DNA of 54,802 bases from Caulobacter sp. (lineage in GTDB: Bacteria; Pseudomonadota; Alphaproteobacteria; Caulobacterales; Caulobacteraceae). Below, in pieces: positions 6,591 through 53,336 of this stretch. Position 1 is the first letter of the stretch. The number at the start of each line of letters is the position of its first letter. The notes under the pieces are model-generated. The model was not told the origin of the DNA, made no database searches, and saw nothing but the letters and a program-made list of their open reading frames with translations. Location: the NCBI GenBank assembly GCA_026225565.1, contig JAMFTA010000055.1, forward strand, positions 1 through 54,802, in the 5' to 3' direction. The translations under genes and the position numbers were made by a program.

Positions 6591-7292
6591 TCAGTTCAAA
6601 TTTCCTGGACCGTTTTTGTGACCGAAGACCCATGTGATCCACAAAGACTTCAGGAGCGCGAACTGCCGGTCAACTTTGGCCCCGAGACCTTGCCTGCGCT
6701 TTATTGCTGGTCGACCGTTCAGAGTTTCACCAACGTCTAGAAACTCGTCTATATTTTTCGAAAGAAGGAGGGGGTAGTGTTTCTGAATTGTCTCCTCTGG
6801 CCAATCCCACCACTTAACAAGGAGAAGTCGTTCAATCTGTTGCGGAGTAAATCGCCATCGCCGGATTTTAGCGGGATTGCCGGCTACAATAGCATAATCT
6901 GGAACATCCTTCGTTACCACGGCATATGCGGAAACGCATGCCCCGTTCCCGATCTTTACTCCCGATAATATCGCCGATCCCTGGCCAAGCCATACGTCGT
7001 GACCCAATAAAACGTCACCCCGACTATGAGGGTGGCCTGGGATGGATACAGCTTCAGGATCTAAAGCGCTAAACGGAAAAGTAGTAATCCAATCCGTTCG
7101 ATGATTGCCGCCTAAAAATATGCTGACTTCAGAACCGATGGAGCAAAAATTCCCAGCATGGAATTTTTGTCCTTCACCCCAAGAAAGTATCCGTGGATCG
7201 CCGTATGAATTCAATCCGGCAGTATACCCCATGCCAGGATATATTGCATCGAGATATTCTTGCAGAAACGGGACGCCACGGATAAGATTCAT
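6591..7292 (-). CDS. CatB-like hexapeptide-repeat O-acetyltransferase
   Basis: This is a left-handed beta-helix acyltransferase of the xenobiotic (CatB/Vat) type, transferring acetyl from acetyl-CoA to a hydroxyl. Visible signatures are FHAGNFCSIGSEVSIFLGG, then DVLLGHDVWLGQGSAILSGV, and the CoA-side SAYAVVTKDVPDYAIVAGNPAK. These are hexapeptide repeats with the extended loop found in CatB. The catalytic-type His is expected in LGGNHRTDW. The C-terminal 80 residues extend beyond the usual core and are unassigned. The gene is clearly AT-richer and uses more A/T third positions than its neighbours, which suggests recent transfer. Near the glycan genes it could modify a surface sugar; this is inferred. 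Antibiotic resistance cannot be claimed. Confidence 0.8.
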   Translation of the reverse strand: MNLIRGVPFLQEYLDAIYPGMGYTAGLNSYGDPRILSWGEGQKFHAGNFCSIGSEVSIFLGGNHRTDWITTFPFSALDPEAVSIPGHPHSRGDVLLGHDVWLGQGSAILSGVKIGNGACVSAYAVVTKDVPDYAIVAGNPAKIRRWRFTPQQIERLLLVKWWDWPEETIQKHYPLLLSKNIDEFLDVGETLNGRPAIKRRQGLGAKVDRQFALLKSLWITWVFGHKNGPGNLN

Positions 7293-7568
7293 GATGATGG
7301 GGCCTTAGCATCTAATCTAAAGATCGGATCGCTTGTGTATCTGCTTAGCCTTTCAGGCGAAAGCCTCAAAGGGTGAAATGTATCACAACGCCTGCGCGGC
7401 CTGAGATAGTCGAGGTGGCTGGCATGCCTCGACGGCGGATTCGAACGGCGACACCACCGCGTCTAACTTCGGTTGGCGCGGGGCCTTGCGAAGGCCTATA
7501 TTCTGAGGTCAAAGCGCGCGTCGCGTCCCGCCGCGCAGGATTGGCCCGGTGGGCAAGGAGCAAACGTC

Positions 7569-7790
7569 ATGATGGGTAGCCTCAGCCCAATGCACTGGAT
7601 CATCATCCTGGTGGTCGCAGCGCTCGTCTTCGGCGGCCGTGGCAAGCTGTCTGGCCTGATGGGCGACGCCGCCAAGGGCATCAAGGCCTTTCGCGACGGC
7701 CTGAAGGAAGAGGACAAGCCCGCCGCAGCGGTCGCCCCCACCCCCTTGCCGCCCGTGGCCGTTCCCGAGCGGGAAGAGATTAAGCCATAA
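7569..7790 (+). CDS. tatA: Sec-independent translocase subunit TatA
   Basis: TatA forms the size-fitting channel of the twin-arginine export system for folded proteins in the inner membrane. The 73-residue protein has one N-terminal membrane helix ([15 protein letters not shown]), then the conserved Phe-Gly hinge region [11 protein letters not shown], an amphipathic helix ([17 protein letters not shown]) and a Pro-rich tail. The start at 7569 is chosen because AAGGAG stands 8 bases upstream; an in-frame ATG follows directly at 7572, and the open frame upstream to 7473 has no such support. It is the first gene of tatA-tatB-tatC. About 275 bases upstream have no gene and should hold the operon promoter. 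Confidence 0.95.
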
Positions 7791-7843
7791 CTCGCCGCGC
7801 CCGCGCCTGACGGCGCGCCCTAAGCCATAAAGATAGAGCCGGC

Positions 7844-8323
7844 ATGTTTCCCCTAGAACAGGGCGCGTTCGAGATGATCTTGATCGGCGCCATCGCGCTG
7901 ATCGTGGTCGGTCCCAAGGACCTGCCGATGCTGATGCGCAAGGTCGGCCAGTTCACCGCCAAGATGCGCGGTCTGGCCGCCGAATTTCGCGCCAGTTTCG
8001 ACGAGATGGCCCGCCAGTCGGAACTCGACGATCTGAGGAAGGAGGTCGAGGCCCTGCGCACGGGCGCCTCCATCGCCCCGATCAGCCAGGAGATCGACCA
8101 GCACCTCTCGGGCGGCTTCAACCCCTATCCGACGGGCTATCCCTCGGCCCCCGAGGCGACACTTCCCGTGGTGACCAACACACCCGTGGCCGACGTGGCA
8201 CCCCCGGCCACGGAGACCGCAGCCGATTCCGCGCCGATCCCAGAAGCCCCGCCCAAGAAACCCCGCGCCCCGCGCAAGCCCAGGGCCAAGCCGGCCGAAA
8301 GCGCCGGGGAGACCGCTGAGTGA
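7844..8323 (+). CDS. tatB: Sec-independent translocase subunit TatB
   Basis: TatB forms the twin-arginine signal receptor with TatC. The N-terminus FEMILIGAIALIVVGPKDLP is the classic TatB membrane helix with the Gly-Pro hinge. A charged amphipathic/coiled region follows (KVGQFTAKMRGLAAEFRASF), ending in an Ala/Pro/Lys-rich low-complexity tail (residues 100-159) that is probably disordered. At 159 residues it has usual length for Caulobacterales. The gap after tatA is 53 bases, and the 3' end overlaps the tatC start in GTGA, so TatB and TatC are likely made in step. Confidence 0.95.
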   Translation: MFPLEQGAFEMILIGAIALIVVGPKDLPMLMRKVGQFTAKMRGLAAEFRASFDEMARQSELDDLRKEVEALRTGASIAPISQEIDQHLSGGFNPYPTGYPSAPEATLPVVTNTPVADVAPPATETAADSAPIPEAPPKKPRAPRKPRAKPAESAGETAE

Positions 8324-25460: not shown

Positions 25461-25937
25461 ATGCTGCACGTTCGTTCGCTGAAGGACGTCGAGAGGGCGC
25501 GGGGCGCCATCGCCCGCATCGGCAAGCTGTCCGACAATGTAATTGGCATCGGCCCGTTCGGCATCGGCATCGACGGCATACTGGCGTGGGTTCCGGGCCT
25601 GGGCGACGTCTATTCCATCGCCGCCGGGGGCATGTTGCTGCTGATGGGGGTTCGCACCCGCGCGCCTCTGCATAACCTGATCCAGGTGGGCGCGATCATC
25701 GGCCTGCGCACCGGCATCGGCGCGGCGGCCATCCCGTTCCTGGGTCCCATCTATCCGATTTCCGGGGCCCTCGTGGACCTGTTTCGCGGGCACAAGATGT
25801 CGGCGGAACTCCTGATCAAGGCCATCGACAAGACCGTCTATGTGGAAGGCCGCAAGAGCGATCCCATGCGTCCTGAACTCGCCGAACAGCTGGCGGCGGC
25901 GCGAAGCAAGGGCGCGCGGATCGTCTATCTGGGGTGA
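25461..25937 (+). CDS. DUF4112-family membrane protein
   Basis: This is a 158-residue protein with the DUF4112 layout. A short charged N-terminus (LHVRSLKDVERARGAIARIG) is followed by IGPFGIGIDGILAWVPGLGD and two or three hydrophobic segments (SIAAGGMLLLMG; QVGAIIGLRTGIGAAAIPFLG). A basic cytosolic tail carries LVDLFRGHKMSAELL. GAGGGG stands a good distance before ATG 25461; the upstream open frame to 25311 overlaps rlmJ and is not needed. Function of the family is unknown. It follows rlmJ by 86 bases on the same strand. Confidence 0.8.
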   Translation: MLHVRSLKDVERARGAIARIGKLSDNVIGIGPFGIGIDGILAWVPGLGDVYSIAAGGMLLLMGVRTRAPLHNLIQVGAIIGLRTGIGAAAIPFLGPIYPISGALVDLFRGHKMSAELLIKAIDKTVYVEGRKSDPMRPELAEQLAAARSKGARIVYLG

Positions 25938-26063
25938 GGCCCTTATCGCCACCGACCTGAACGGGCGCTGGCCGGCGCGGTCCTCCCACGCTCACCGCCG
26001 CGTTCTGCGACGCCATGGAACACGGTCTTCGCCGTGCGCCCCGGAGAAATAATCTCTCTATAG

Positions 26064-26109
26064 GTGCATATCACAATTTACAGTTGTAAATATCTCCAAT
26101 TATATGCAC
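26064..26109. promoter_or_regulatory. Nested inverted repeats in an AT-rich promoter
   Basis: GTGCATAT (26064-26071) pairs perfectly with ATATGCAC (26102-26109). Nested inside, ATTTAC (26076-26081) and GTAAAT (26086-26091) form a second perfect inverted repeat with a 4-base loop. A further TGCATAT lies at 26118. The region is sharply AT-rich against the backbone and sits 27 bases before the Cys-rich gene. An operator for a dimeric regulator, or a transferred fragment boundary, are both possible. Confidence 0.55.
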
Positions 26110-26135
26110 TCATAACTTGCATATGGAGATGCATC

Positions 26136-26498
26136 ATGGCCACGGCAGCCTACCCAGAGTTTAGTGCAGAAGCCATAGCTCAAGCGCTCGAAGCGGCGCA
26201 AAGGCACAGCGCACCGCGTTTACAGGCCGCATCAGGTCAAGGTTTGGTGTTTGCCGACGGCGCGCTGAAGGTCAGCGCCCAGTGCATCAGCGTGACGGTC
26301 AACAACGGTCAGGTGTGCCTGAACCTTCCGGTGGTCGGTTCTGAGTGCTTCTCGGTTCCCTCATGGGTGCCGAACGGGACCGCTGTCCAAGCCTGCCTGG
26401 ATATCTGTACGAAGTGGGGCATTCCCTGCGGCGTCGAGGTGACGGTTTCCCTCGCCGGGCAGAAAATCTTCACCAAGGGCTTTGGATGCAGCTGTTAG
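26136..26498 (+). CDS. Small Cys-rich protein of unknown family, 120 aa
   Basis: I do not recognise this protein. The N-terminal 35 residues look helical and lack a classic signal peptide (MATAAYPEFSAEAIAQALEA). The rest looks like a beta-rich domain with eight Cys, spaced around CISVTVNNGQVC, SEC, ACLDICTKWGIPC and the terminal GFGCSC. Paired disulphides or metal binding are possible. GGAG stands 7 bases before ATG 26136; the frame open to 26064 lies in the palindromic promoter. Third-position bias is weaker than in neighbours. It is flanked by a strong terminator at 26541. The layout (Ala-rich leader, Cys-rich core, own AT-rich promoter) resembles secreted or modified peptides, but there is no export or maturation gene next to it. 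Confidence 0.7.
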   Translation: MATAAYPEFSAEAIAQALEAAQRHSAPRLQAASGQGLVFADGALKVSAQCISVTVNNGQVCLNLPVVGSECFSVPSWVPNGTAVQACLDICTKWGIPCGVEVTVSLAGQKIFTKGFGCSC

Positions 26499-26540
26499 GC
26501 TGACGGTTCGCCGATCATCCAAGGCCGTTGACGTTTGGCG

Positions 26541-26572
26541 GCGGGCAGGCGGGTTATGGCCCGCCTGCCCGC
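26541..26572. terminator. Strong hairpin terminator, 13-base stem
   Basis: GCGGGCAGGCGGG (26541-26553) pairs perfectly with CCCGCCTGCCCGC (26560-26572) around a 6-base loop, followed by a T-rich stretch (TCGTTTCGG). It lies between the convergent Cys-rich gene and the mutase gene and should stop transcription from at least the plus strand. Confidence 0.82.
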
Positions 26573-26592
26573 TCGTTTCGGTTCGGTTCAGA

Positions 26593-28751
<2,159 letters not shown>

Positions 28752-28755
<4 letters not shown>

Positions 28756-31827: not shown

Positions 31828-32649
31828 TTGTCCGACGACGCCACCCCGCGCCTAGCCCTGCCCTATCTGGCGGCGGCCCAGGCGCAAAAGCATGTGACCA
31901 TGAACGCCGCCCTCGCCCTCCTGGACGGACTGGTGCAGACGGCGGTGGAGAGCCGCAGCACGGCGGCCGAGCCCACAGCGCCGGCGGACGGCGCAATCTA
32001 CATTCTGCCGGCGGGAGCGGTGGGCATTGACTGGGCCGGCCGCGCCGCCGGAACCGCCCTGCGCTTTGAGGCGGGCGCCTGGAGCGTGCTGCAAAGCCAA
32101 CCGGGGTGGCTCGCCTATGTGAAGGACGAGGGGGTGCTGTTGGTGCAGGGGAGCGCCGGCTGGGGCGACGTCGGCCTGGCGCTGCGGTCCCTGCAAAACC
32201 TCACCCAACTGGGCGTCGGCACGACCGCCGACGGGACCAACCTGCTCTCGGTGAAGACGGCGGCGGTGCTGTTCTCCAACCTCGGCGCCGACCTGCAGCT
32301 GAAGTTGAACAAGGCGGCGACGGCCAATACCGGCTCGATGCTGTTGCAGAGCGGCTATTCGGGGCGGGCGGAGGTCGGCCTCTGCGGCGACGATAATCTG
32401 CATCTGAAGGTCTCGCCGGACGGGTCGGCCTGGAGCGACGCCCTGGTGGTCTCCAGCGGCGCCGGCGCGCGGGTGGCGGTGGACGGGGCGGTGCAGGTGA
32501 AAAGCCTGGCGAAAGCCGCGCTGCCGACCGCCGCTTCGCAGGGGGCAGGAGCTCTGCTGTTCGTCTCCGACGAGGTCGGCGGCGCTACGCTGGCGTTTTC
32601 CGACGGCGCCAGTTGGCGCCGGGTCGCCGACCGCGCCGTCGTGGCCTGA
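31828..32649 (+). CDS. DUF2793 protein (phage/GTA tail-type)
   Basis: The N-terminal 120 residues match DUF2793: LALPYLAAAQAQKHVTMNAA, then AIYILPAGAVGIDWAGRAA and QSQPGWLAYVKDEGVLLV. DUF2793 proteins are found in prophage and gene-transfer-agent tail regions and probably take part in host binding. The C-terminal half (LLQSGYSGRAEVGLCGDDNLHLK) looks like a beta-rich fibre segment. Start is TTG 31828 after GGGAGAC. It opens a five-gene plus-strand block (to 35805) that looks like a tail tip and lysis module without capsid or packaging genes. Confidence 0.78.
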   Translation: MSDDATPRLALPYLAAAQAQKHVTMNAALALLDGLVQTAVESRSTAAEPTAPADGAIYILPAGAVGIDWAGRAAGTALRFEAGAWSVLQSQPGWLAYVKDEGVLLVQGSAGWGDVGLALRSLQNLTQLGVGTTADGTNLLSVKTAAVLFSNLGADLQLKLNKAATANTGSMLLQSGYSGRAEVGLCGDDNLHLKVSPDGSAWSDALVVSSGAGARVAVDGAVQVKSLAKAALPTAASQGAGALLFVSDEVGGATLAFSDGASWRRVADRAVVA

Positions 32650-32664
32650 GCGGGGAGGACCGGC

Positions 32665-33312
32665 ATGGCTAAGGTACGGATCGAATGGGTGCGTCTGGGC
32701 GCGCTCGGGGGCGGGGGCGGCGCGGCGGTGAACCAGCCGCTTGAACTATTCGGCGCGGCCGAGGTGTTGAGCGTCGCCACCGCCCCGGTGTCGGTGACGG
32801 CGCCCGCCTTCACCCAGGGCGAGCCGGGGGTGGAAGGGTCCGCCTTCGCCCGCATCACCGGGCTTTCGGGCGCGGCGCACGTGGCCTGGGGGGCGGCGCC
32901 GGCCAGTGAGACCACAGGCTGGCGTGTCGAGGCCGGCGGCTTCGCCCTGGTCCCGATGAAGTCGGGGGATGGGCTCTCCTTGGTGCAGGCGCTCGATCCG
33001 CCGTCGCCGGTAGGTTCCGCCGCCATGCGGGCGGTGGCCACCAGCCGCGCGGGCGTCATCGCAGCCGCCGCCGCGGCGCAGGATCTGATGGCTGCCAACC
33101 CCGATCGCAACGGCTGGCTGATCCAGAACCAGTCCGCCGCCAACCTGTTTGTCCGCAGCAAGGGCGCGGCGGGGACCGCCGTGGCCACCGCCGACGGGCA
33201 AAGCCTCTTGGTGCCCCCCGGCGGCTATTACGAGCCGTCCAAGGTCACCCCGCACGCATTGTCGATCATCGGTCTGGCCGCCGGCCAGGCCTTCTTTGCC
33301 GAGGAGTGGTGA
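32665..33312 (+). CDS. Hypothetical tail-module protein, 215 aa
   Basis: This is an unrecognised protein, Gly/Ala-rich at the N-terminus (RLGALGGGGGAAV), then beta-type segments (FARITGLSGAAHVAWGAAP). The C-terminal domain (NGWLIQNQSAANLFVRSKG) resembles the small beta-barrel ends seen in tail or spike proteins. It starts 15 bases after the DUF2793 gene with GGGGAGG before ATG, and ends where the next gene starts, so it is in the same transcript. A structural virion role is inferred from position only. Confidence 0.6.
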   Translation: MAKVRIEWVRLGALGGGGGAAVNQPLELFGAAEVLSVATAPVSVTAPAFTQGEPGVEGSAFARITGLSGAAHVAWGAAPASETTGWRVEAGGFALVPMKSGDGLSLVQALDPPSPVGSAAMRAVATSRAGVIAAAAAAQDLMAANPDRNGWLIQNQSAANLFVRSKGAAGTAVATADGQSLLVPPGGYYEPSKVTPHALSIIGLAAGQAFFAEEW

Positions 33313-41166: not shown

Positions 41167-41253
41167 GCGGTCGTGGCGGAATTGGTAGACGCGCAGCGTT
41201 GAGGTCGCTGTTCCTTAACCGGAGTGGAAGTTCGAGTCTTCTCGACCGCACCA
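41167..41253 (+). tRNA. tRNA-Leu(GAG)
   Basis: An 87-base cloverleaf with encoded CCA. The acceptor stem GCGGTCG pairs with CGACCGC (41243-41249), with discriminator A and then CCA. The anticodon stem CAGCG/CGCTG encloses the loop TTGAGGT, giving anticodon GAG. A long variable arm as in tRNA-Leu and a T-arm with GTTCGAGTC are present. The integrase follows 195 bases later, so its 3' end is the likely insertion target. Confidence 0.95.
41230..41253. other. Probable left attachment site of the mobile element
   Basis: Tyrosine integrases of the P4 type usually recombine in the 3' part of a tRNA gene, from the T-arm to the CCA. The integrase gene begins just downstream and reads away from the tRNA, so the crossover should lie in the T-arm to CCA stretch. 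No second copy of this stretch is visible up to 54802, so the right end must lie outside the window. Exact limits are not determined. Confidence 0.5.
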
Positions 41254-41394
41254 GGGCAGTTTTCGGGGGCGTCCCAGGACGTCCCCCGAGAGCCCACAAA
41301 GTCCCAAAACCTTATATAAATCAACAAGTCTTGGCGTTCTGCGGCGTCGGGGATGTCCCGGTGCGTCCCGGCGAGATCCGTGACAGCCCAGAAA

Positions 41395-41449
41395 ATTGGG
41401 GGTATATTTGGGGGTATTTTGAAATACCCCGTTTGGCGATACCCCCAAT
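41395..41449. promoter_or_regulatory. Nested inverted/direct repeats over the integrase start
   Basis: ATTGGGGGTAT (41395-41405) is perfectly complementary to ATACCCCCAAT (41439-41449), which includes the first two bases of the integrase ATG. Nested inside, GGGGTATTT (41411-41419) pairs with AAATACCCC (41422-41430). GGGGGTAT also occurs twice directly. Between the tRNA and this site several CGTCCC/TGTCCC copies occur (41268-41371). They could be arm-type integrase or excisionase sites, or a self-repression operator hiding the start in an RNA hairpin. Confidence 0.6.
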
Positions 41450-42713
41450 GGCCCTAACTGATGTTCAGGTTCGCAACGCCAAGGCTCAAAAGGCTGCTTA
41501 CAAATTAGCTGACGGCCAGGGCCTTTTTTTGCAGGTCACAAGCAGCGGGGCGAAGCTCTGGCGGATGAAGTTTCGCCAAGGCGGGAAGGAAGGCCTTCTC
41601 AGTTTTGGCCCCTATCCGGAGGTGACGTTGGGCGCCGCGCGAGAAAGGCGTGATGAGGCCCGCCGTCAAATCAGAGACGGCAAGAGCCCAGCGCTTGAGA
41701 AACGGCGGGAGGCGATCCTGGCTAAGGCCGCGGCCGGGAACACGTTCGCCGTAATCGCCGAGGAAGTCGTTGCGAAGCGGGAGCGAGAGGGCTTGGCCCC
41801 CACGACGGCGACCAAGCTTCGTTGGTATGGCTCGTTGCTCGGCTCAGTGTGCGACCGCCCCATCAGTGAGATTGAGGCGTTCGAGCTGCTCGATCAGTTG
41901 CGGAAGATAGAGGCCTCAGGACGCTACGAGACGGCGGTAAACACACTGGCATTTGCCGGTAGGGTGTTCCGCTACGCCATCGCTACAAGTCGCGCGCGGC
42001 GCGACGTGGCGGCAGATCTGCGAGGTGCGCTCACCTCGCCGAAGGTCACGCACCACGCGGCGATCCTCGACCTCGAAGGAGCGGGGCGGATCATGCGATC
42101 CATCGATGCCTATACGGGCCAGCGCGTCACCGGACGCGCATTGGCCATGATGGCGCATACATTCCCTCGCCCTGGAGAGCTGCGGCTCGCCGAGTGGTGC
42201 GAATTCGATTTGCGCGACGCAACGTGGCGCATCCCCGCGGCCCGAACAAAGATGCGTAAGGAGCATCTCATTCCGCTTTCGCGTCAGGCGCTAGCGATCC
42301 TGGAGGATCTTCGAGCAATGAGCGGAGGGGAGGGCCTCGTGTTTCCTTCAATCCGCAATCGCGGAAAGCCTTTAAGTGAAAACACGCTCAATACGTCGTT
42401 GCGCGGCATGGGCTACGGCGCAGACGAAATGACTTCGCACGGCTTTCGAGCCATGGCGTCGACCTTGTTGAACGAATCCGGAAAGTGGAATCCAGACGCC
42501 ATCGAGCGTTCGCTAGCCCACGGCGACAGTGACACCGTGCGAGGCGCCTACCATCGCGGTCTCCACTGGGCTGAGCGGGTGAAGATGATGCAGTGGTGGA
42601 GCGACTATCTAGAAGCGCTGCGAGACTCCACAAACGTCCAATCGCTAAAATCCAGATCAAGGGCGAGCCAACGCGCCCCGGGCAGGCCTCAGCCTGGGTC
42701 GCTCGCCCGATAG
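41448..42713 (+). CDS. P4-type tyrosine integrase
   Basis: This is a site-specific recombinase that integrates and excises the element at tRNA-Leu. The N-terminal arm-binding domain (DUF4102 type) is LTDVQVRNAKAQKAAYKLAD to LSFGPYPEVTLGAARE. The core-binding domain follows at about 95-190. The catalytic domain shows Arg in TFPRPGELRLAEW (about 241), HGFR in MTSHGFRAMAST (about 330) and Tyr in VRGAYHRGLHW (about 366). ATG 41448 gives 421 residues, normal for the group; the open frame back to 41199 runs into the tRNA. The C-terminal end is extended and basic. Confidence 0.93.
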   Translation: MALTDVQVRNAKAQKAAYKLADGQGLFLQVTSSGAKLWRMKFRQGGKEGLLSFGPYPEVTLGAARERRDEARRQIRDGKSPALEKRREAILAKAAAGNTFAVIAEEVVAKREREGLAPTTATKLRWYGSLLGSVCDRPISEIEAFELLDQLRKIEASGRYETAVNTLAFAGRVFRYAIATSRARRDVAADLRGALTSPKVTHHAAILDLEGAGRIMRSIDAYTGQRVTGRALAMMAHTFPRPGELRLAEWCEFDLRDATWRIPAARTKMRKEHLIPLSRQALAILEDLRAMSGGEGLVFPSIRNRGKPLSENTLNTSLRGMGYGADEMTSHGFRAMASTLLNESGKWNPDAIERSLAHGDSDTVRGAYHRGLHWAERVKMMQWWSDYLEALRDSTNVQSLKSRSRASQRAPGRPQPGSLAR

Positions 42714-42892
42714 GTCGAAGGACTGTCGATCCAACGGCTAACCGCCGACTCATGCCAGCCAGCGCTGTGGACGCTGATCTTTACTTGCCGGGGGAAGGTG
42801 CCCTCCGAGATCTTGCGATAGACGCTTGTGCGCGACAGCCCGGTCCGCTCGAGCACGGCCTTAAGCCGCATAATCCTCTCTGACCCGGACAT
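42689..42892 (-). CDS. AlpA-like excisionase/regulator
   Basis: This is a small MerR/Xis-type winged-helix protein, as commonly found beside P4-type integrases, where AlpA activates excision. The core is RLKAVLERTGLSRTSVYRKI, then EGTFPRQVKISVHSAGWHES and AVSRWI, a full AlpA signature. I choose ATG 42892 (MSGSERIM), giving 67 residues; 42907 is an alternative. It overlaps the last bases of the upstream minus-strand gene by about 32 and the integrase end by 25, the latter convergent. Regulation of the element is its likely job. Confidence 0.82.
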   Translation of the reverse strand: MSGSERIMRLKAVLERTGLSRTSVYRKISEGTFPRQVKISVHSAGWHESAVSRWIDSPSTYRASDPG

Positions 42893-43577
42893 GAGACGCA
42901 CTTTCATCAGCTTTGGCGGGCGGTATCTCCGCAAAGCTCGCCAAGGCGTCATATGCAGGAACGCCGGTGAGGGGGACGGGGGGCGGGTCCGGAAAGCGAT
43001 GGTCTCGGTCCATCTCCGCGAGCCAGTCACGGATCGCCGGAGCGTCTGGCTCCGGGGCAGCCTCGACGGGCCCCGAAGAATAGAAGAGCCCGCCCATGAG
43101 CCCTGACGACGCAAAGATGTCGTTCACCATCGCGGACGAATTGGCGTCCCACACTCTCTGAGCCACCATCTGGACGGCTCGTTCGAAGGTCCTGACGGTC
43201 TCTCTGAAGGAATCGAGGTCGAGATCCAGCGGAGCTTCAATGCCAGCCACATCAACCGCGACACGCAGGTTGCTGTCGCTGTGTTGGGCAGCAGCAGCTT
43301 CGAACATGCGCAGAATGTCCGCGGCCATGCGAGGGTAGGGCGCAAGGGCCCGAAAGACGCTCGTGAGGAGGCGCTCCGGTGACGTGTCGTGAATGCGGAG
43401 CAGTTCGCCGACGTCGCCATCCGCAACCCGAAAGATGTCCGTTCGGATTTCCTTGACGAAGCCGTCGTCGTAGGTCTCGACTTCGCTGGGTTGGGTCGAA
43501 GTCGTGAGGCCCGCCCTTTGCCGGAGCGCATCCCAGAGTTGGGCGCCGCTTTGTAGGATTTCCGGATGATCGCCCAT
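42861..43577 (-). CDS. Hypothetical element protein, about 238 aa
   Basis: This is an unrecognised acidic soluble protein. It begins MGDHPEILQSGAQLWDALRQ; the middle is helical (LLTSVFRALAPYPRMAADIL) and contains the acidic stretch APLDLDLDSFRETVRTFERA. The C-terminal third is Pro/Asp-rich and probably flexible. No membrane segment or catalytic motif is seen. It is read towards alpA and overlaps it, and is divergent from the NA37-like gene across 285 bases. The genes on both sides of that gap may share control. Start 43598 is possible. Confidence 0.6.
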   Translation of the reverse strand: MGDHPEILQSGAQLWDALRQRAGLTTSTQPSEVETYDDGFVKEIRTDIFRVADGDVGELLRIHDTSPERLLTSVFRALAPYPRMAADILRMFEAAAAQHSDSNLRVAVDVAGIEAPLDLDLDSFRETVRTFERAVQMVAQRVWDANSSAMVNDIFASSGLMGGLFYSSGPVEAAPEPDAPAIRDWLAEMDRDHRFPDPPPVPLTGVPAYDALASFAEIPPAKADESASHVRVREDYAA

Positions 43578-43862
43578 ATCCGCGCCTTTCGTTCGCAATG
43601 ACTATAGCGGGAGCCGGTGCATTGCTCACCTTTGATGGTTGGGATCCATCCGATGACTGGCTCGCACCGCCCGCTTCCAGCACAATCGGGCACCGTGATC
43701 TGACCGTGTCCGTGTAGAGCGTGTTTCCTAATTGTTCTGGTCGCGCTACGGTTATAATGCAAAGAGCCAGATGAATCGGCCCTGGCGTCCCGAGAGGCAC
43801 GGTCCGCCATCGACACCCGCCCGGGTTGCGGCCTACCTTGACCGAAATGTGGAGGGCGAGGA

Positions 43863-44918
43863 ATGGGATTCTTATCGAACGAGGAGGCCGCCGCGCTGCG
43901 GATCACCCGAATGATCCTGCATGTGGTGGGTGATGGGGAGTTCCAGCCAGAACCTGAACTTGCGGAGGTTGAACAGGAGCAGTTCTTCCTGGATCGCCTT
44001 CAAGACGTCAATGCATCCGGGCTGTTCAAGTTCAAACCAACGTCTCCGACCAAGTCGGCCATCGGCGACATAGCTTCGGGGGTGACGTCGTTCGAGGCCG
44101 GCGCCCAAGCCCTGGCCCGAGAATTCTCGAAATGGCATGTCGGCACCAGCGTCAACGGCGCCTTCTTTATCTTCGAATTGAATGCTGGCGTGGCGGGAAC
44201 GCAGCTCTATGGGATGGTGAAATACGACTATAAGGCCGCGGTCGAGCGGACCGAGGACCAAGGGCAGGTTCACCTACGGCGGATCATCGATGCGTTTGTG
44301 GAGGATAAAAAGGCGTTGCAGAAATCCTGCCTCGTCCGGGTCGTCGATGGCGTCGTCATTGATGAGATCTCGGCCAAGGACCGAATGGGATCGGCGCCCA
44401 ATCTCACCGACTATTTCATGAAGTTCCTTGAAGTTGAGCGGGATCGATCAGATGAGGAACTCAATCGGTCCGTCAACGAGGGCCTGCGCCAGGTGCTGAA
44501 TGACACCCGCGATCTCTTGCCAGGCAAAGACGTCGGCTTGGCGTTGGCGATGGCAAAGGACATCCTCCGAAACCGACAGCTGATTGATGAGGAGGCGATC
44601 GCGGAGGCCGTGTTCACGGCGGCGGGAAATCCCGAAGGCGAGGATGAGCGAAAGCTCATCCAACGTGCGATCAATTCCCAAGTGAAGCGGCAAAAACTGA
44701 CGGGTCTGTCGTTCAAGCCTGATGCCCAGGTGCTCCGGCGATCTCAACGCCGACGGCTCCGGACCGCCGAGGGCGTCGTGCTGGAATATCCAACCGACCT
44801 GGAGAACGCCAGCGTCAAACGCACCGTCCATGCGGATGGCAGCGCCACATTTGTGATCGAGACTAAGAGAGTCGAGGATGACCAAATCGTCCGTGAGCGA
44901 GCTGGCGCTTCGAATTGA
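43863..44918 (+). CDS. NA37/NdpA-like nucleoid-associated protein
   Basis: The 351-residue protein resembles the 37-kDa nucleoid-associated family (PF04245; E. coli YejK): GAFFIFELNAGVAGTQLYGM, then HLRRIIDAFVEDKKALQKSC, LVRVVDGVVIDEISAKDR and the family block NLTDYFMKFLEVE near residue 182, where YejK has a VADFFMDFLG-type sequence. The C-terminal 100 residues (KRQKLTGLSFKPDAQVL; ATFVIETKR) are less clear. A nucleic-acid-binding or sensing role is possible. GGAGG 7 bases before ATG 43863. It overlaps the next gene by 41 bases, so the two products probably act together. In a mobile element such pairs are often defence modules; that is inference. Confidence 0.62.
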   Translation: MGFLSNEEAAALRITRMILHVVGDGEFQPEPELAEVEQEQFFLDRLQDVNASGLFKFKPTSPTKSAIGDIASGVTSFEAGAQALAREFSKWHVGTSVNGAFFIFELNAGVAGTQLYGMVKYDYKAAVERTEDQGQVHLRRIIDAFVEDKKALQKSCLVRVVDGVVIDEISAKDRMGSAPNLTDYFMKFLEVERDRSDEELNRSVNEGLRQVLNDTRDLLPGKDVGLALAMAKDILRNRQLIDEEAIAEAVFTAAGNPEGEDERKLIQRAINSQVKRQKLTGLSFKPDAQVLRRSQRRRLRTAEGVVLEYPTDLENASVKRTVHADGSATFVIETKRVEDDQIVRERAGASN

Positions 44919-46185
44919 CGAATTGGTGGCTGTCGGACCCGCCGTGCTGGTCGAGACACCCACCAATGTCATCCTTTCGGGCTTAACCGCCAGCCATGCG
45001 AAAGACTTCGCCGCCGCGACTCAAGCGCTCGGCTGGGCCATTACGCTTGAGGACTCGTCCGATGCCGAGTGCACGATCGCCCAGATCGGCGAGGATCTGC
45101 AGCCCTACCGACTGCGGATCACCAAGCCCGCGCCAGAGACCGGCATTCGCTATCTCACAAACGGAGGATTTCAGGCTTGGCTGAAAGAGGCCTCCGCGGT
45201 CGGCAAGGTCGAAGTCTGTCGTCTGAGCGCGTCGTACGCGACCTTCGGCTATGTCGCGGCGCCCTGGGAATCCACGGTCAAAGCGGCTACTGGGCCGCCT
45301 CTAAAATCTCCCCGCACGCTTGTTCGCGAGGCGGCGCCGATCCGGGTGGCACCGGAGGATATCCGGCCTTGGCTTCTAGCTGATGCCTCCGATGCTGCTT
45401 GGGACGATCCGGTGTTTGCTCTGTGGGCGCAACAGGCTGCGACAATGCTCTCTCGCGCATTGGCGACGGAAATCGAACCGGATGACTGTGCGTTGGTGTT
45501 CGCGGGACCTCCAAAAATCAAGCTCGACCCGCCGGCGGTGGATCTCGCCCAGACCCTGGGCAAGACCGGTTTCGCTGCGCTCCAGACGGCTGCGCGCTGG
45601 GTCTACGAAAATGAGCGCGAGACGGAAACGCGCCACAGGCTATTCGCCATTGAGGTCGCCCGGTCCGCCACCGCTCGGACCAACGTCGGCGCGGTTTTGG
45701 CGGCCTGCGGCGCTCAGGCCTTGGAGGGTGCACGCCTCGCGTTCCAACTGGGGTTGGAGGATCTGAGCCGCGATACGCTGAAGGCCTTGGCGGATCTGCG
45801 CAAAGGGCTCGGCGACGACGCCGCGAAGCTGGCCGATTCAACGCGGCAAATTGCAGCCGCGGTTGCCGGTGCGCTCGTGTTGGGCCTCGGCCTCGTCGCC
45901 GCGAAGCTCGGGACGACGGCGCCTAAGCCGCTCATCGTTGTCTTGGCTTTTGTTCTCACCGGCTACGTCGCCGCCGTGATCGCTAGCAACTTGCAGTTCG
46001 TCCTGCTGCAGCGCTCCATCCGAAAGGAATGGCGCGGTCGGCTATATCGGTTTCTGACCTCGGAGGACTACCAGCGCATGGTGTCCAAGCCGGCTCACGA
46101 CGCGGAATTGTCGACCTTCATTGCCATGGGGATCGGCGCGTTGCTGGCCCTGATCATGCTGGGCGCCGTCGTTTTTCTACCATAG
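44878..46185 (+). CDS. Membrane-anchored partner protein of the NA37-like gene
   Basis: This is an unrecognised 435-residue protein. The N-terminal soluble part is mixed alpha/beta (VGPAVLVETPTNVILSGL; FQAWLKEASAVGKVEVCRLS). A central helical part follows (TRHRLFAIEVARSATARTNV; DLSRDTLKALADLRKGLGDD). Three hydrophobic segments close it: AAVAGALVLGLGLVAAKLG, LIVVLAFVLTGYVAAVIAS and, at the C-terminus, TFIAMGIGALLALIMLGAVV. This layout (cytosolic sensing part, coiled linker, C-terminal membrane helices) suits a membrane-acting effector. It starts inside the 3' end of the NA37-like gene, after GTCGAGG. No homologous family is known to me. Confidence 0.7.
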   Translation: MTKSSVSELALRIDELVAVGPAVLVETPTNVILSGLTASHAKDFAAATQALGWAITLEDSSDAECTIAQIGEDLQPYRLRITKPAPETGIRYLTNGGFQAWLKEASAVGKVEVCRLSASYATFGYVAAPWESTVKAATGPPLKSPRTLVREAAPIRVAPEDIRPWLLADASDAAWDDPVFALWAQQAATMLSRALATEIEPDDCALVFAGPPKIKLDPPAVDLAQTLGKTGFAALQTAARWVYENERETETRHRLFAIEVARSATARTNVGAVLAACGAQALEGARLAFQLGLEDLSRDTLKALADLRKGLGDDAAKLADSTRQIAAAVAGALVLGLGLVAAKLGTTAPKPLIVVLAFVLTGYVAAVIASNLQFVLLQRSIRKEWRGRLYRFLTSEDYQRMVSKPAHDAELSTFIAMGIGALLALIMLGAVVFLP

Positions 46186-46285
46186 AGGCTCGAGGCGTAG
46201 CGTCAGGCGCAGCCGATTGACCATGACTAGGCCGCTCTCGCTGGGGCAAGGTCCGGCTCGGGGTCAGGCGCCACTATGGCCTTGC

Positions 46286-47122
46286 TCATTGCATTGGGGA
46301 CAAGGGCGGCAGAACGCGCAGCGCGTCCTGCTTATTAATGCGTTCAACAAGCGGCGATATCTTAGCGACGGGAAGCCCACGGAGACTGTCGAGCTTGGCT
46401 TTCGCCGCCAACACCTGATCGGTGAACGTCTTATTCGTCTCAAGTCTGGCGAACAGGACCGTGGCCGCGAGCCGGCCGGCGGCTAGGTCAGACGGATAGT
46501 GGAAGCCGCAAATCAGGCGGCTCTCGCCGAACTGGTAGCCTTTGGCAAAGAGGGCGTCGGTGCGGTCGGGCGCGAGCTGCGACAAGACCAAGGCCCACAG
46601 CATCCCGACCGCCGCGTGAGTCGATGGGTAGGAGCCGCTCTCGTTGAGCTGATATTGGGTGTCATCGACGTCGTGCGGGCAAACCGCCAGGTTGGGAAAT
46701 TGCACATAGGGACGAACGCGGCCGCCGGTGCCGTCGGCCTTGACCTTGAGCTTCACGGGCTTGACCAGAGCCTCAAGATCGAGCTGCGCGAGATGGATCG
46801 TGTTCAAGATGATCTGAGCATTCGCGGGCGTGAGGGTTACGCCCAGCGCATTGCTGAAGCGAGGGGCGACGTCGGCAGGCATGTAGACGTCATCGAGATG
46901 AGCTTCGGCCCCGCGAGGGCCAGCCGCAAGGGCGCGCGTGCCCAGATAGGTGGCGAGATCCGCGGTTTCCACGGCGCTGTCCGGCGAAGGCGTTGGGGGC
47001 ATCCAGGTTAGGACCTTCAAATCCTGATCGCCGAGAAAGCCTCCGGTGGGCGCCGCCCAGGCCGGGCCGCCGCAAATCATGAGGATGGCGAGCGCGCCGC
47101 CCGCCAAACGGCCCATCAACAT
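46286..47122 (-). CDS. Secreted class A acid phosphatase (PAP2 superfamily)
   Basis: This is a periplasmic non-specific acid phosphatase of the PhoN type. The signal peptide is RLAGGALAILMICGGPAWAA. The three active-site blocks are complete: K-x6-RP type in VKADGTGGRVRPY (about 130-140), PSTHA in NESGSYPSTHAAVG (about 160) and the SR-x5-HYPSD type block in ESRLICGFHYPSD (about 200). 278 residues is usual. It lies 24 bases after the unknown membrane gene and is read with it and the PLD gene. Standing in a mobile element beside a PLD-family gene, it may act on phospholipid or nucleotide products; this is inference. Confidence 0.88.
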   Translation of the reverse strand: MLMGRLAGGALAILMICGGPAWAAPTGGFLGDQDLKVLTWMPPTPSPDSAVETADLATYLGTRALAAGPRGAEAHLDDVYMPADVAPRFSNALGVTLTPANAQIILNTIHLAQLDLEALVKPVKLKVKADGTGGRVRPYVQFPNLAVCPHDVDDTQYQLNESGSYPSTHAAVGMLWALVLSQLAPDRTDALFAKGYQFGESRLICGFHYPSDLAAGRLAATVLFARLETNKTFTDQVLAAKAKLDSLRGLPVAKISPLVERINKQDALRVLPPLSPMQ

Positions 47123-47146
47123 GGCATTCCCCCGACGAATGAAGCT

Positions 47147-47872
47147 TCACGCATCTGCCCGGTCGCTCGGCTGCGGCTCTTCGATCACCGCGCGCGTCCA
47201 CCGGCAAAATCCATCCACGCCCACCTGCATCAGCAGCAAAGCCATGCCCCCGATGACCGGCGCACCAACCGCCGCGAGGACCGGCGTCAAGTGACTGGCG
47301 ACCGTTACGGCGACCATCGAGGCGGCGCCGACGGACAGTCCCGTCACCGTGGGATCGGTCAACTGCACGCCCGCACGCTTCGCTTGAGCAATCGCGTCGC
47401 GGACGGCCTTCGACGTGCGCGGATCGCTGCAGATGCGCTCGCGGAACGCTTCGAAGACGAATTTTCCCAAGTTGAACTCGTAGTGATAGTAGCTCAGCAT
47501 CGCGAGTGCTTCGTCGTCGGAAAGGAGGCTGCCCCGTTGCTCGCTGAGAAGTTCCCGCATGAAGGCGTACTGCCAAGCGGAGTCTTTCAGACCGCGCAGT
47601 TCGTCATCAGCCTTCCAATCGAGACGAAAAACTGCCCCCGTCGACTCCGACGGCGGCCGCGCGATCTGGATGGCGAAGGGCTCCTTGACCATGACGCCGA
47701 TCAGGCGGGCGAACTGCCGACGCGCCAGCGGTGTTTCGACGTTGGCGAGCACATTCTGCAAACTCAGATGGTAGTGCCGCTCCGACAGGTCGTTCAGGGC
47801 GACCGCGGTCGCCGCGACCGCGGCCTCGAAATCGCCCGGTCGAGGGGCCGCCCCGTTATAGGTTTCCGCCAC
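47147..47872 (-). CDS. Unknown membrane-associated protein, 241 aa
   Basis: I do not recognise this family. The N-terminal 150 residues are soluble and helical (ALNDLSERHYHLSLQNVLAN; LLSDDEALAMLSYYHYEFNL). The C-terminal part has a hydrophobic Ala/Val/Gly stretch (LSVGAASMVAVTVASHLTPV; LAAVGAPVIGGMALLLMQVG) that could form one or two membrane helices, ending in a short Asp/Arg tail. The start is GTG 47872. It lies 45 bases after the PLD gene and 24 before the phosphatase gene, so the three are likely one operon. Confidence 0.6.
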   Translation of the reverse strand: MAETYNGAAPRPGDFEAAVAATAVALNDLSERHYHLSLQNVLANVETPLARRQFARLIGVMVKEPFAIQIARPPSESTGAVFRLDWKADDELRGLKDSAWQYAFMRELLSEQRGSLLSDDEALAMLSYYHYEFNLGKFVFEAFRERICSDPRTSKAVRDAIAQAKRAGVQLTDPTVTGLSVGAASMVAVTVASHLTPVLAAVGAPVIGGMALLLMQVGVDGFCRWTRAVIEEPQPSDRADA

Positions 47873-47917
47873 GATCGTGCTCCCCGTTTAGTCGCCAGCC
47901 AGCGCTCAACTTCACTC

Positions 47918-49849
47918 CTAGAGGAACGCGCGCAGCCCCTTGTCTCCCGTGAGATCCGCATCCTGCCACTTATCAGTGGTTGAGAGAAATCCCTCTTGGG
48001 GTGCGTCGGGATCGATCGCGGGGCCGCCCGCCAGCAGGCGATCCCGCTCGCGCTGTTCCTGCACCGCCCGGAACCGATAGTGCTCGAAAACGTCGAGCAC
48101 ATGGACCGCGTAGGCCTGCGCCAGGGCCGGGAGGCCCTGCACGATCAAGAGATTATCGTCATTGGCGTAAGACGCCTTGAACCCGAGATTGTGACTTCCG
48201 GTTACGACGACGCAATCCTCCGAAAACGGATCGATGACGACGATCTTGTCGTGTATGATGGCGAAACCGGCCGATAGCAGCTCCGGCTCGAAATCGCCGA
48301 AATGTGCGCCGATCGCGGCGGCTCTGATCGTCAGAACTTTCGGCGCGCCCTCAGGAGAAAATACCGAAGGCGACGGCAGTTTGGAGGCGGTCTTATCCGC
48401 GGATTTTGGCGCCGCAACATAGTTGGGCATAGCCTGTGGGTCGCTGATCGCGCCCAAGACCAGCAACTCGGCGTTCTCCTTGCCGAGTTCGATGGCCATG
48501 TCGATGACGCTTTTGACGCCTTCGGGGGAGGGCATGAAGGTCAGGAACAGGATCGCCGCCTTGGCCTGTCGCATGAGTGCGAAGACGTCGGTCAGATCTG
48601 CGGGCGGCGGCGACGTCGCGGTCTTGCTGGTGGCGAACGTGTTGGGCGAGCACCACATCCGAGCGGTCGTCGGCGCCGGCAAGTCCGAAGCGGGATAGGC
48701 GTGGCCATCGGCCTCTCGCAGCGGGGCCTGCTGTACGTTGTGGTTAGGCTGGCTGGTGTCGGCTTGGGGCGGAAACGTGGCCGTGTCGTCCTTGAGCCGG
48801 TTCCAGTAGTCGAGATAGGCGCGGGCCAGGTCGGGTGACCGCGAGATGATCGTGTTGTTGGATTGGGTGCAAAGGCCGGTGTCCGTCCAGTTGGTGCTGC
48901 CTGTCAAAACCGCCTTGGCCACGCCGTCGGGGCCAACCTGAACGACGAACTTGTTGTGGCCGATCCGGCTGGTGTTGTTGAACAGGCGGTCGATCACTTC
49001 GCTCGCGGTGCCGTGCAGAGTCTGCCGCGCCGCATGATTTTCCGTGTCCCAGGCGGGGTCGCTTTTTGTCGGGGACCCTGCCGTGGACAGGATCAGGTGT
49101 AAGCGCGCGCCGAGGCCGGACAGCCGGCCGATCAATTCTGGGTCCGACAGTTCGTAGAGCGCGGCGTGCACCGTGTCGCCTGGTGTAAGCCCGGCAAGAA
49201 AGGATTTGAGCGTCGGCAAAACGTCGCCGGTCAGAAAGGCCCGGATGGGATCTGCGGGGTCTTTGGTGTGCGTGCGCAGGTCCTGCGCGCTCGGCGCCCT
49301 GCCTGGCGCCGTACCGAGCTGCCTTCTCAGATTCTGTGTCGACAAGATGCCGTTGGTGAAGACCGCGGTGAAGTCGCCGAAGTCGGTTGTCGCGGCGATG
49401 GGTTCAGTCGAAAACGCCTCGTCCGCGCACAGATACAGCGGAACGGCGTCGCCCATCATCTTGGTGGGGTCGGCGCTTGAGAAGACATCCGGGTTGGCGG
49501 CGCGCCAATCGGCGACCGCCTGGCGGCCCGGCGCGGCGTGGCCGACCGGCCAAATATCATAGTGGCAGGCAAAGGGCAGGCGAATGTCCAGGGTGTCGCG
49601 GCTTCGCCTCAGGGTCAAATCGCGCCACTCGAACTTCTGGATCGGCCATACGCTGACATCTTGCGGTAGCCAGTTCGGGTTGGACTGGCCCTCAAAGGCG
49701 ACCCATGCGGGCAGGAGGCGACGCTCGCCGTTTGCGTGGACCCGCACGATCATGAAGCCCAAAAGGCCATCAATCCTATCGTGGATGTCCCAGGCCAGAT
49801 AGGCGACTTCGTTATTGCACCACGCTCGACCTTTAGTGATGGGTGTCAT
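47918..49849 (-). CDS. Phospholipase D-family protein with two HKD motifs
   Basis: This PLD-superfamily enzyme may act on phospholipids or as a nuclease. HKD motif 1 is RIGHNKFVVQVGPDG with GSTNW following (about 297-320). Motif 2 is AIIHDKIVVIDPFSEDC with GSHN following (about 530-552). Both have the His, Lys and Asn that make the shared active site. The N-terminal 190 residues (NNEVAYLAWDIHDRIDGLLG; FACHYDIWPVG) are an extra domain I cannot name. There is no signal peptide. ATG 49849 gives 643 residues; the frame open to 50065 adds a basic stretch with no Shine-Dalgarno and is rejected. It is first in a three-gene minus-strand unit. Confidence 0.82.
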   Translation of the reverse strand: MTPITKGRAWCNNEVAYLAWDIHDRIDGLLGFMIVRVHANGERRLLPAWVAFEGQSNPNWLPQDVSVWPIQKFEWRDLTLRRSRDTLDIRLPFACHYDIWPVGHAAPGRQAVADWRAANPDVFSSADPTKMMGDAVPLYLCADEAFSTEPIAATTDFGDFTAVFTNGILSTQNLRRQLGTAPGRAPSAQDLRTHTKDPADPIRAFLTGDVLPTLKSFLAGLTPGDTVHAALYELSDPELIGRLSGLGARLHLILSTAGSPTKSDPAWDTENHAARQTLHGTASEVIDRLFNNTSRIGHNKFVVQVGPDGVAKAVLTGSTNWTDTGLCTQSNNTIISRSPDLARAYLDYWNRLKDDTATFPPQADTSQPNHNVQQAPLREADGHAYPASDLPAPTTARMWCSPNTFATSKTATSPPPADLTDVFALMRQAKAAILFLTFMPSPEGVKSVIDMAIELGKENAELLVLGAISDPQAMPNYVAAPKSADKTASKLPSPSVFSPEGAPKVLTIRAAAIGAHFGDFEPELLSAGFAIIHDKIVVIDPFSEDCVVVTGSHNLGFKASYANDDNLLIVQGLPALAQAYAVHVLDVFEHYRFRAVQEQRERDRLLAGGPAIDPDAPQEGFLSTTDKWQDADLTGDKGLRAFL

Positions 49850-50137
49850 TGGAGCCCCCCGCGCAGCGTGTAGTTGTCTATATTTCTGTGACACTTTTAT
49901 GGTTGTGCCTGGATCGAATGGGCATGCGTTCAGCGGAGATAGGCGACCAAGCGATACGGTCGATCTCCGTCTACGTCGGCGAAAGGTCCGCACCGCTGCG
50001 GATTCCGAGCTGGTGCGCCGCCATTCCGTCAGAAAGCCCTGTAGCGTCCAATTTCTAGCCGCCATGCATCAGGGCGGGTCGACTTCATTATTGTCGAGGT
50101 TAACGGCGCGCCGCTTCAATCATTTGCGGGGGGCGGA
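49850..50137. other. Gene-free gap upstream of the PLD operon
   Basis: Both strands were read and no supported gene was found. The first 80 bases next to the PLD start are AT-richer (around 49878-49905, TATATTTCTGTGACACTTTT) and probably hold the promoter of the minus-strand operon. The rest looks like decayed coding sequence without a recognisable product. Confidence 0.4.
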
Positions 50138-50365
50138 TCAGTTGCGCCACCGCTGGCCGAGTTCGTCGGCGAACCACATCTCGGCGTCGTAGAGAGGACT
50201 CATGCGAGACCGAAAAGAAAAGACGCCCGTATAGCGGGCCTCCAGCCAGATTCGGAAGTCGGTGAAGCTCGGGTGCTCCCGCATCGCTTCCGGTTGCTCC
50301 CTCTGCCAGTCATGGCAGAGCCGGCGGACGATCTGCTCGCTTTCCGGTTTCGTGTACTTCACCAT
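50138..50365 (-). CDS. Small hypothetical protein, 75 aa
   Basis: This is a short charged protein with many aromatic residues (MVKYTKPESEQIVRRLCHDW; EHPSFTDFRIWLEARY; YDAEMWFADELGQRW). Proteins of this look are frequent as unnamed neighbours of Ti-type transfer regions, as far as I recall. No motif gives a function. ATG 50365; it is divergent from the repeat array and Fic gene. Confidence 0.5.
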   Translation of the reverse strand: MVKYTKPESEQIVRRLCHDWQREQPEAMREHPSFTDFRIWLEARYTGVFSFRSRMSPLYDAEMWFADELGQRWRN

Positions 50366-50448
50366 GTCCCCGAGACTACCGCGGGGGAGGCGATTCGTCA
50401 GGTGACCTGACCCCCTTTGACCGCGAAGCGGTCGCCAAAGCGCGACGG

Positions 50449-50587
50449 CTTACGCGAATTGAGCGGACACTGCCCGCTCTTATGCAAATTTGACGGACAT
50501 TCGGTCGAGTCGCTTGCCGCTTATGCGAAGGTGCCTTATGCAAATCTGGCGGACATTTTTCTGTCTTACGCGAATTTTACGGACATT
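50449..50587 (+). repeat. Four imperfect 23-base direct repeats before the Fic gene
   Basis: Copies at 50449-50471, 50479-50501, 50535-50557 and 50565-50587 share CTTAYGCRAAT-x5-CGGACA. Copies 1-2 and 3-4 are each spaced exactly 30 bases start to start, with 56 bases between the pairs. A half copy (CTTATGCGAA) lies at 50520. The last core word, GGCGGACAT, returns over the Fic start codon. Possible roles are operator sites for the winged-helix part of the Fic protein, or the multiple end repeats of an IS21-like element remnant. Confidence 0.7.
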
Positions 50588-50616
50588 TTCGCCCTCCAGC
50601 GGAGTGTAAGGCTATC

Positions 50617-52194: not shown

Positions 52195-52283
52195 CTCAGG
52201 GCCGCCGATCGAATGTTATAGCGCCCATGACGAAGAAGGAGCCAAAGCACGGGGCGTATCAACGGAGTGCGGCACGGTAGAGG

Positions 52284-52547
52284 TTGGCGCCTGGGGCGAG
52301 ACCATTGCGATCAACGTTTGCTTCTGCGACGCCTGAGGTCCAAAAGCCTGTCGAGTTCACGATCGGCCTTTTTGACTTCCCCGTGGGCCCCATCGATCGA
52401 GGCGCGACCTTCCATGCGGTGTCCGGCTCGATTTCCGCGAATACGAACACTGAGACCGCCTTGCGAAGGGCGCTTACCGAAGCGGGTATAATCTTCATCG
52501 ATGAGAACGGCGAAGGACCGGGTGTCCGGTTGCGCAAAGGCGGTTAG
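52284..52547 (+). pseudogene. Fragment ending like an XRE-type regulator
   Basis: The last 32 residues (ETALRRALTEAGIIFIDENG followed by EGPGVRLRKGG) match the usual C-terminus of small helix-turn-helix regulators. The upstream part (EFTIGLFDFPVGPIDRGATF) does not contain the helix-turn-helix itself. TTG 52284 is the only start, without a good ribosome site. I read it as a remnant left by recombination. It ends 36 bases before the convergent traD end. Confidence 0.35.
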
Positions 52548-52582
52548 TTCGAACCTGCGTTGTTGTTCGAGGCAGCCTTTGA

Positions 52583-53165: not shown

Positions 53166-53277
53166 GTCCACCTTCCTTGATGAGCGATGGCCTGAGGATA
53201 ATGCAGGGCTGTCCGGAAGGCTCTATGTGCGGCGGAACACTCTGGTACAGTCCGGTCCATCCCGAGATTCTTTCTTT

Positions 53278-53325
53278 CGAGGGCGCGCTTATACGTCGTG
53301 CCGACGTGCTCTTCAGGGCGTAATT
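53278..53325. other. Probable origin of transfer (oriT, Ti/RSF1010-like)
   Basis: Between divergent traC and traA lies GAGGGCGCGCTTATACGTCG, close to the nic-region core I remember from Ti/RSF1010-type origins (AAGGGCGCAATTATACGTCG-like). A short inverted repeat follows (ACGTC 53293-53297, GACGT 53303-53307). Position, orientation and the MOBQ-type relaxase next to it support this. The exact nic site is not proven. Confidence 0.7.
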
Positions 53326-53336
53326 GGATCGCCATC

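Follow-up and report, generated by a model that had tools for sequence, protein, structure and literature searches.

Does the small open reading frame in the AT-rich DNA at 26064-26498 of this 54,802-nucleotide stretch (the whole of it referred to below as the window) encode a genuine protein, how did it arrive there, and what is the function of the inverted repeats ahead of it? The earlier note had described a 120-residue protein of no known family with eight cysteines, expressed from a promoter carrying two perfect nested inverted repeats in AT-rich DNA and closed by a 13-base-stem terminator, and had read it as a self-contained unit, compatible with a transferred gene for a secreted, metal-binding or modified peptide. 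The features discussed below are listed in Table 1.

Table 1. Features of the cysteine-rich gene and its surroundings (positions in the window).
Feature	Position	Strand	Basis or detail
Left flank: DUF4112 protein gene, outside the unit	25461..25937	+	Pfam domain
Extra DNA relative to G188, where the stop codons of the two flanking genes almost touch	25938..26592	.	comparison with G188
Outer inverted repeat, left arm GTGCATAT	26064..26071	+	perfect, 8 bp
Inner palindrome ATTTACA-GT-TGTAAAT, 7-bp arms 26076-26082 / 26085-26091	26076..26091	+	perfect
Anti-Shine-Dalgarno arm ATCTCCA	26092..26098	+	perfect 7-bp complement of 26124-26130
ATATGCA, overlapping the right arm of the outer repeat	26102..26108	+	perfect complement of 26118-26124
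Outer inverted repeat, right arm ATATGCAC	26102..26109	+	perfect, 8 bp
TGCATAT	26118..26124	+	partner of 26102-26108
Shine-Dalgarno GGAG (26125-26128) within TGGAGAT	26124..26130	+	7 nt ahead of the ATG
Coding sequence, 120 aa, eight Cys	26136..26498	+	ATG start, ORF reading and homologue comparison
N-terminal helix-like segment (residues 1-48) and Cys core (50-120)	within 26136..26498	+	models, alignment
Terminator-like hairpin, 13-bp perfect arms 26541-26553 / 26560-26572	26540..26573	+	terminator scan
Right flank gene, outside the unit	26593..28755	-	ORF

Position 26064 is only an in-frame GTG, lying in the AT-rich DNA upstream of the ATG at 26136. The ATG frame gives the 120-residue protein with eight cysteines, and an equivalent methionine is available as a start in the homologues. 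The GC content of the upstream stretch is 0.32 against 0.66 for the whole window, while the gene itself has a GC content of 0.60 and a GC3 of 0.70 (neighbour GC3, 0.91). In all 12 family pairs tested, synonymous change exceeded amino-acid change, as for L005/L006 (dS 0.51, dN 0.04) and L056/L060 (0.50 vs 0.13); pairs that include the window are near saturation at synonymous sites. Homologues and purifying selection together indicate that ORF 26136-26498 is a genuine gene. A spurious frame in AT-rich intergenic DNA would suit a protein without a curated family match, but this reading is ruled out by 33 homologues elsewhere and is opposed by the purifying selection, and we give it almost no credence.

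The protein matched none of the curated families searched. Its best Pfam match was DUF5949 (14.9 bits, below the cut-off of 22.7), the best NCBIfam score was 13.8 bits (cut-off 415), and PHROGs and PADLOC gave zero matches; with the empty PADLOC search, a known defence protein was set aside. When 13 family members were scanned against the four libraries, the lowest E value was 0.0041, for a single member with NCBIfam StpX, and the best values in Pfam and PHROG were 0.022 and 0.041. An hmmsearch of the PDB sequences gave nothing convincing (best E 0.73), and a literature text search with the peptide string GCISVTVNNGQVC returned no match. Searches of Pfam, NCBIfam, PHROGs, PADLOC and the PDB sequences thus bear out the statement that the protein has no known family.

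Homology searches, a check that the earlier note had proposed and for which it had named an absence of homologues as the contrary outcome, returned 33 homologues besides the window (one of them, L014, frameshifted) and one fragment. They occur in Sphingomonas and elsewhere in its family, and also in the family of Aquibium and the wider order. The scan of a genome-contig collection gave 11 relatives, nine of which carry the title Sphingomonas and the other two 'uncultured bacterium' and Aquibium carbonis, with 49-64% identity to the window protein over the best segment; named relatives include S. glacialis, S. faeni, Leaf230, PAMC 26605 and A. carbonis. The nearest Sphingomonas sequence is L055 (70% identity). 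Profile searches were then summarized by genome set, these sets being overlapping samples except for the window's own family. The window genome itself was the sole hit both in its own family (1/390) and in a sample of its class (1/385). Around the S. glacialis genome G771, the family search gave 3/397, counting G771 and one fragment; the A. carbonis family gave 11/247, of which six, including A. carbonis, were counted as real; the A. carbonis order 5/297, A. carbonis included; and a genus sample around S. glacialis 20/201, 8 of them already found in the contig-collection scan.

Several weak matches were discarded. On reading, L002 and L003 in the window genome proved to be unrelated or broken frames, and L024-L028 (E 0.003-0.009, from the A. 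carbonis family search) were left uncounted: L024 sits in a long unrelated ORF that we take for CbiD, L025, L026 and L028 are long frames matching one common profile segment, and L027 is a poor short frame. L017, the fragment of about 47 residues, was left out of all counts, and L014 out of the tree and the cysteine counts. After merging of identical proteins, 27 sequences entered the tree, and 28 distinct sequences were obtained with L065. In L014 (Sphingomonas sp. Leaf208) a frameshift breaks the homologue, and its close relatives L008-L013 are intact. By these comparisons the homologues constitute a small-protein family that lacks a name in the curated libraries searched.

The distribution of the family bears on how the window acquired the gene. 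In the 27-sequence tree, the window protein falls within a clade otherwise made up of Sphingomonas sequences (support 100/100), and a tree in which all 16 Sphingomonadaceae-side rows form a clade without the window was rejected (p-AU 0.0006). Placing the six other eight-cysteine sequences together with the window outside was not rejected (p-AU 0.465), and the window and the Sphingomonas eight-cysteine sequences could be sisters. Holding the ten Aquibium-order rows together was not rejected either (p-AU 0.11).

In G188, of the same genus, only a few bases separate the end of the DUF4112 gene from that of the right-flank gene, which we take to be methylmalonyl-CoA mutase-like; the two are close together in G274 and 141 bases apart in G178. 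By this comparison, about 650 bases including the cysteine-rich gene are extra in the window. The gap in G187 holds a different reading frame (contig C23, L087), so the site may be insertion-tolerant. This flank pair is adjacent in only 4 of the 9 relatives with a DUF4112 gene; in the other five, the pair is separated or no mutase gene was found. Somewhat lower GC is common for the family in other hosts, which makes low GC weak evidence for transfer. No mobile element was seen adjoining the gene. Cargo of a phage or plasmid was rejected, since phages and viral contigs yielded no homologue and plasmids gave only a partial match (30% identity, E 0.7, Ensifer). With the 1/390 distribution, the tree, the rejected topology and the empty site in G188, gain by transfer into the window lineage, as the earlier note had suggested, is well supported. 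The direction rests on the distribution, 1/390 in the window's own family against 20/201 in the Sphingomonas genus sample, and the donor was probably a Sphingomonas-like bacterium.

The gene appeared solitary in 14 loci, where gene calls over flanks of about 4-6.5 kb were judged by eye (the window, L004-L008, L010, L029-L034 and the fragment locus, L010 being the sole L008-type duplicate kept). This fits a self-contained unit. Neighbours vary between lineages and are common within them; L007, L030 and L032 share a neighbour of about 1000 aa. In L004-L006 (S. glacialis group) a tRNA gene, a possible integration point, precedes the homologue at a distance of about 130 bases; this tRNA has an Rfam match in L004, and L005 and L006 show a similar 3' end. 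At the other end of the unit, the 13-bp hairpin described in the earlier note is present. As a terminator it is only terminator-like, since its tail CGTTTCGGTT is a weak T-run and the scan found 1 terminator against 0.6 expected in shuffles.

Further regions of the window were observed in passing. A tRNA-Leu (GAG) gene at 41167-41253 overlaps the start of a phage-integrase-domain ORF (41199-42713), and some 12 kb further along, the contig end truncates a MobA/MobL relaxase that also has a helicase-like domain (53298-54802). A PLD-like ORF (47918-50065) and a Fic ORF (50617-52194) lie between integrase and relaxase, and GC falls to 0.59-0.65 across the region. The stretch 41167-54802 resembles an integrative mobilisable element sited at a tRNA gene, and two overlapping ORFs of 351 and 435 aa in it (43863-46185), with no Pfam match, are candidate cargo. 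At 31828-33312 a DUF2793 protein is followed by a 215-aa protein with no Pfam match; we presume these genes to be phage-tail or gene-transfer-agent-like. A 233-aa ORF at 6591-7292 has unusually flat codon-position GC and lies at the edge of a low-GC stretch (0.578 at 7001-8000).

The protein is divided into two parts that are conserved very differently. The N-terminal part consists of about 48 variable residues with one partly conserved motif, predicted to be helical (F-D-x3-I-x2-A-L-x-A-A), and the C-terminal core of 71 residues is strongly conserved: of 16 positions invariant among the 28 distinct sequences, 15 lie in the last 71 residues and one, F9, in the first 49. The window cysteines are at 50, 61, 71, 87, 91, 98, 118 and 120, six of which (50, 61, 71, 87, 91 and 120) are invariant in 28/28. 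Cys98 and Cys118 are both present in 7 sequences and both absent in 21. The seven carriers (the window, L004-L006, L055, L061 and L062) form one clade (100/100), so the extra pair counts as one event only, though such joint presence or absence is what a paired role would predict. The gaps between the invariant cysteines are 10, 9, 15, 3 and 28 residues, a spacing that to our knowledge fits no motif. This spacing lacks the CxxC and CC clusters of metallothioneins and zinc ribbons, and a single CxC was found in 7 of the 28 sequences.

AlphaFold2 models were poor (mean pLDDT 40.7 for the whole protein and 48.9 for the core). Both nevertheless arrange the core as three strands, a helix and two strands, the whole-protein model adding an N-terminal helix, which we use as a lead only. 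Foldseek on the low-confidence core model gave no match at E <= 0.001, a result that is uninterpretable because the model is too poor. By simple hydropathy, not SignalP, none of the 28 sequences has a strong N-terminal hydrophobic segment of Sec/Tat or lipoprotein type; the maximal mean Kyte-Doolittle value over 10 residues within the first 40 was 0.05-1.26 (window 1.05). The suggestion that the protein is secreted accordingly finds no support in these signal-peptide data.

Judged from the sequence, the cysteines may either bind metal or form disulphides, and two roles other than the one we propose below have to be weighed. The gene might encode a bacteriocin- or RiPP-like precursor, in which residues 1-48 are a leader cut before Cys50 and the core is exported and possibly modified. 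The two-part architecture, with its border right at the first cysteine, would suit this, as would the Gly-Gly found ahead of the border in 9 of the 28 distinct members; as there is no Sec signal, another export route would be needed. However, the residue pair before the first core cysteine is Ala-Gly in 1 member and another pair in 18, the window itself having Ala-Gln, so that the Gly-Gly expected throughout a double-glycine leader class is missing in most members. RiPP precursors usually conserve the leader over the core, and here the core is more conserved. In addition, no NCBIfam or Pfam leader-family match was among those listed, and no modifying or export gene was recognised by eye among the neighbours in the 14 loci. 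We consider a precursor unlikely. A stress-induced thiol or metal-buffer protein of the cytosol would agree with the lack of a visible signal peptide, the even number of cysteines and the solitary gene. The cysteine spacing, without CxxC or CC and with CxC in a quarter of the members, speaks against it, and we find this role doubtful.

The DNA ahead of the gene contains the two inverted repeats, which are nested yet not concentric. When 26045-26135 was shuffled 5000 times with its dinucleotides preserved, 8.4% of the shuffles contained an 8-bp repeat with a gap of up to 40 and 12.4% a 7-bp repeat with a short gap, but only 0.12% had the nested arrangement. A sigma-70 scan, which does not cover other promoter types, found no sigma-70-like site in 25900-26650. 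The repeats and the AT-richness reported by the earlier note stand, its promoter is not confirmed, and the "promoter palindrome" is better restated as a structured leader or an operator.

Folded from 26060, the RNA adopts a branched fold with GGAG base-paired. The fold of the whole leader reaches a z of only -1.76 (12 of 200 shuffles being equally stable), and those of 12 relatives range from z -2.88 to +0.59. When the Shine-Dalgarno and the start were kept fixed and the upstream part was shuffled, the Shine-Dalgarno accessibility in the window was 0.00, where the shuffles averaged 0.30 (p 0.015). In the closest relative, L055, the Shine-Dalgarno is occluded by a 9-bp complement (TATCTCTCC/GGAGAGATA, p 0.027), and it is likewise occluded in L061 (p 0.032) and L054 (p 0.007) by sequences different from those of the window. 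L062 is borderline (accessibility 0.205, p 0.21), and L004, with L005 and L006 of the same clade, is not occluded, so that among the four other distinct relatives in the window clade the pairing is clear in two, borderline in one and absent in one. For the wider family, 23 of 33 leaders were counted (close relatives and the L065 leader left out). Accessibility was <= 0.2 in 8 of these 23, as compared with 3 of the 32 neighbouring genes (Fisher p 0.038), with 15/23 above 0.2; only 4/23 reached p <= 0.05. The combined p of 0.020 assumes independent leaders, and these are related; a rank test of family leaders against controls gave p 0.18.

In the model, the window accessibility stayed at 0.00-0.02 from 4 to 48 °C. 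An RNA thermometer was rejected on this lack of melting, and the model shows no simple switch. Pairing the outer repeat instead gives an alternative fold that would cost 5.4 kcal/mol more (-16.8 vs -22.2 kcal/mol). Rfam gave no match in the window leader up to E 5, and on six homologue loci a tRNA was the sole match at the gathering score. Control by RNA through Shine-Dalgarno occlusion is thus a reasonable reading of the modelled folds, which are suggestive.

Its main rival is a DNA operator, with the nested repeats bound by a repressor or activator dimer and the RNA fold a by-product of their symmetry. Long inverted repeats also lie farther upstream of L055 (16-bp arms), L064 and L063 (9-bp each). 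Each lineage has its own upstream DNA: the motif ATyCGATTCGGA is common to ten Sphingomonadaceae leaders, and nine leaders (the Aquibium-order set together with L029 and the window) have TACAACC in common, whose match in the window falls inside the inner palindrome (TACAACTGTAAA). Such lineage-specific motifs favour transcriptional control in those other homologues. Each motif beat 60/60 shuffles, but both were fitted on the same related sequences, which inflates this significance (10 and 9 chosen leaders; an earlier run with 22 and 11 leaders and 12 shuffles each also beat all). Moreover, neither the window (best score 1.4) nor L054 (3.6) carries ATyCGATTCGGA. The earlier note had proposed searching the genome for further copies of the palindrome. 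The inner repeat, the one of the two that was searched genome-wide, had no other mismatch-free copy and four other sites with two mismatches each, equal to the control scan (5 vs 5). The BlaI/CopY-type operator motif is TACAnnTGTA; however, the PF03965 repressor is absent from the one genome searched (0/1, 98% complete), while a control was positive in 7/14, and with no palindrome copies beyond control a BlaI/CopY regulon was rejected. We regard an operator as possible, though less than probable.

We thus propose that the locus is a transferred single-gene unit for a cysteine-stapled mini-domain whose translation is probably restrained by its leader RNA, a reading that we hold to be evenly balanced as a whole. 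The horizontally acquired unit would encode a small cysteine-rich protein made from its own transcript, with a core predicted to fold as a beta-beta-beta-alpha-beta-beta mini-domain. The core cysteines would staple it in pairs, by disulphides or, if the protein stays cytoplasmic, by shared metal sites. The modelled leader RNA would pair the Shine-Dalgarno and thereby restrain translation, and a competing fold or a factor acting in trans would open it, heat alone being insufficient. The gene, its cysteine pattern, its solitary look and its transfer are carried by sequence comparison, and the fold, the cysteine pairing and the RNA control are what we infer beyond it. A bolder version would make this a new fold class: a cysteine-stapled beta-beta-beta-alpha-beta-beta core, exported through a non-Sec leader and encoded by a one-gene unit moving between alphaproteobacteria, with a leader RNA hiding the ribosome-binding site until a signal arrives. 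We consider this version a long shot.

The family is compact and well conserved, it has a clear cysteine signature, and its transfer history is legible in the flanking DNA. Since one small gene makes up the unit and homologues exist in named Sphingomonas and Aquibium strains, its role, its cysteine chemistry and the leader control are directly testable. Compared with leader RNAs that occlude the Shine-Dalgarno (thermometers and translational riboswitches), the window leader similarly holds its Shine-Dalgarno in a hairpin for which a competing fold can be drawn, but it differs in having no Rfam match, no thermal opening and relatives that are mostly unpaired. Metallothioneins, bacteriocins and disulphide-rich peptides resemble it as small, cysteine-rich products of solitary genes, whereas the window family has no convincing library match. 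The Sphingomonas and Aquibium homologues, although they differ in host family, flanks and upstream sequence, belong to the same family, with the same six cysteines and a solitary gene wherever the flanks were read.
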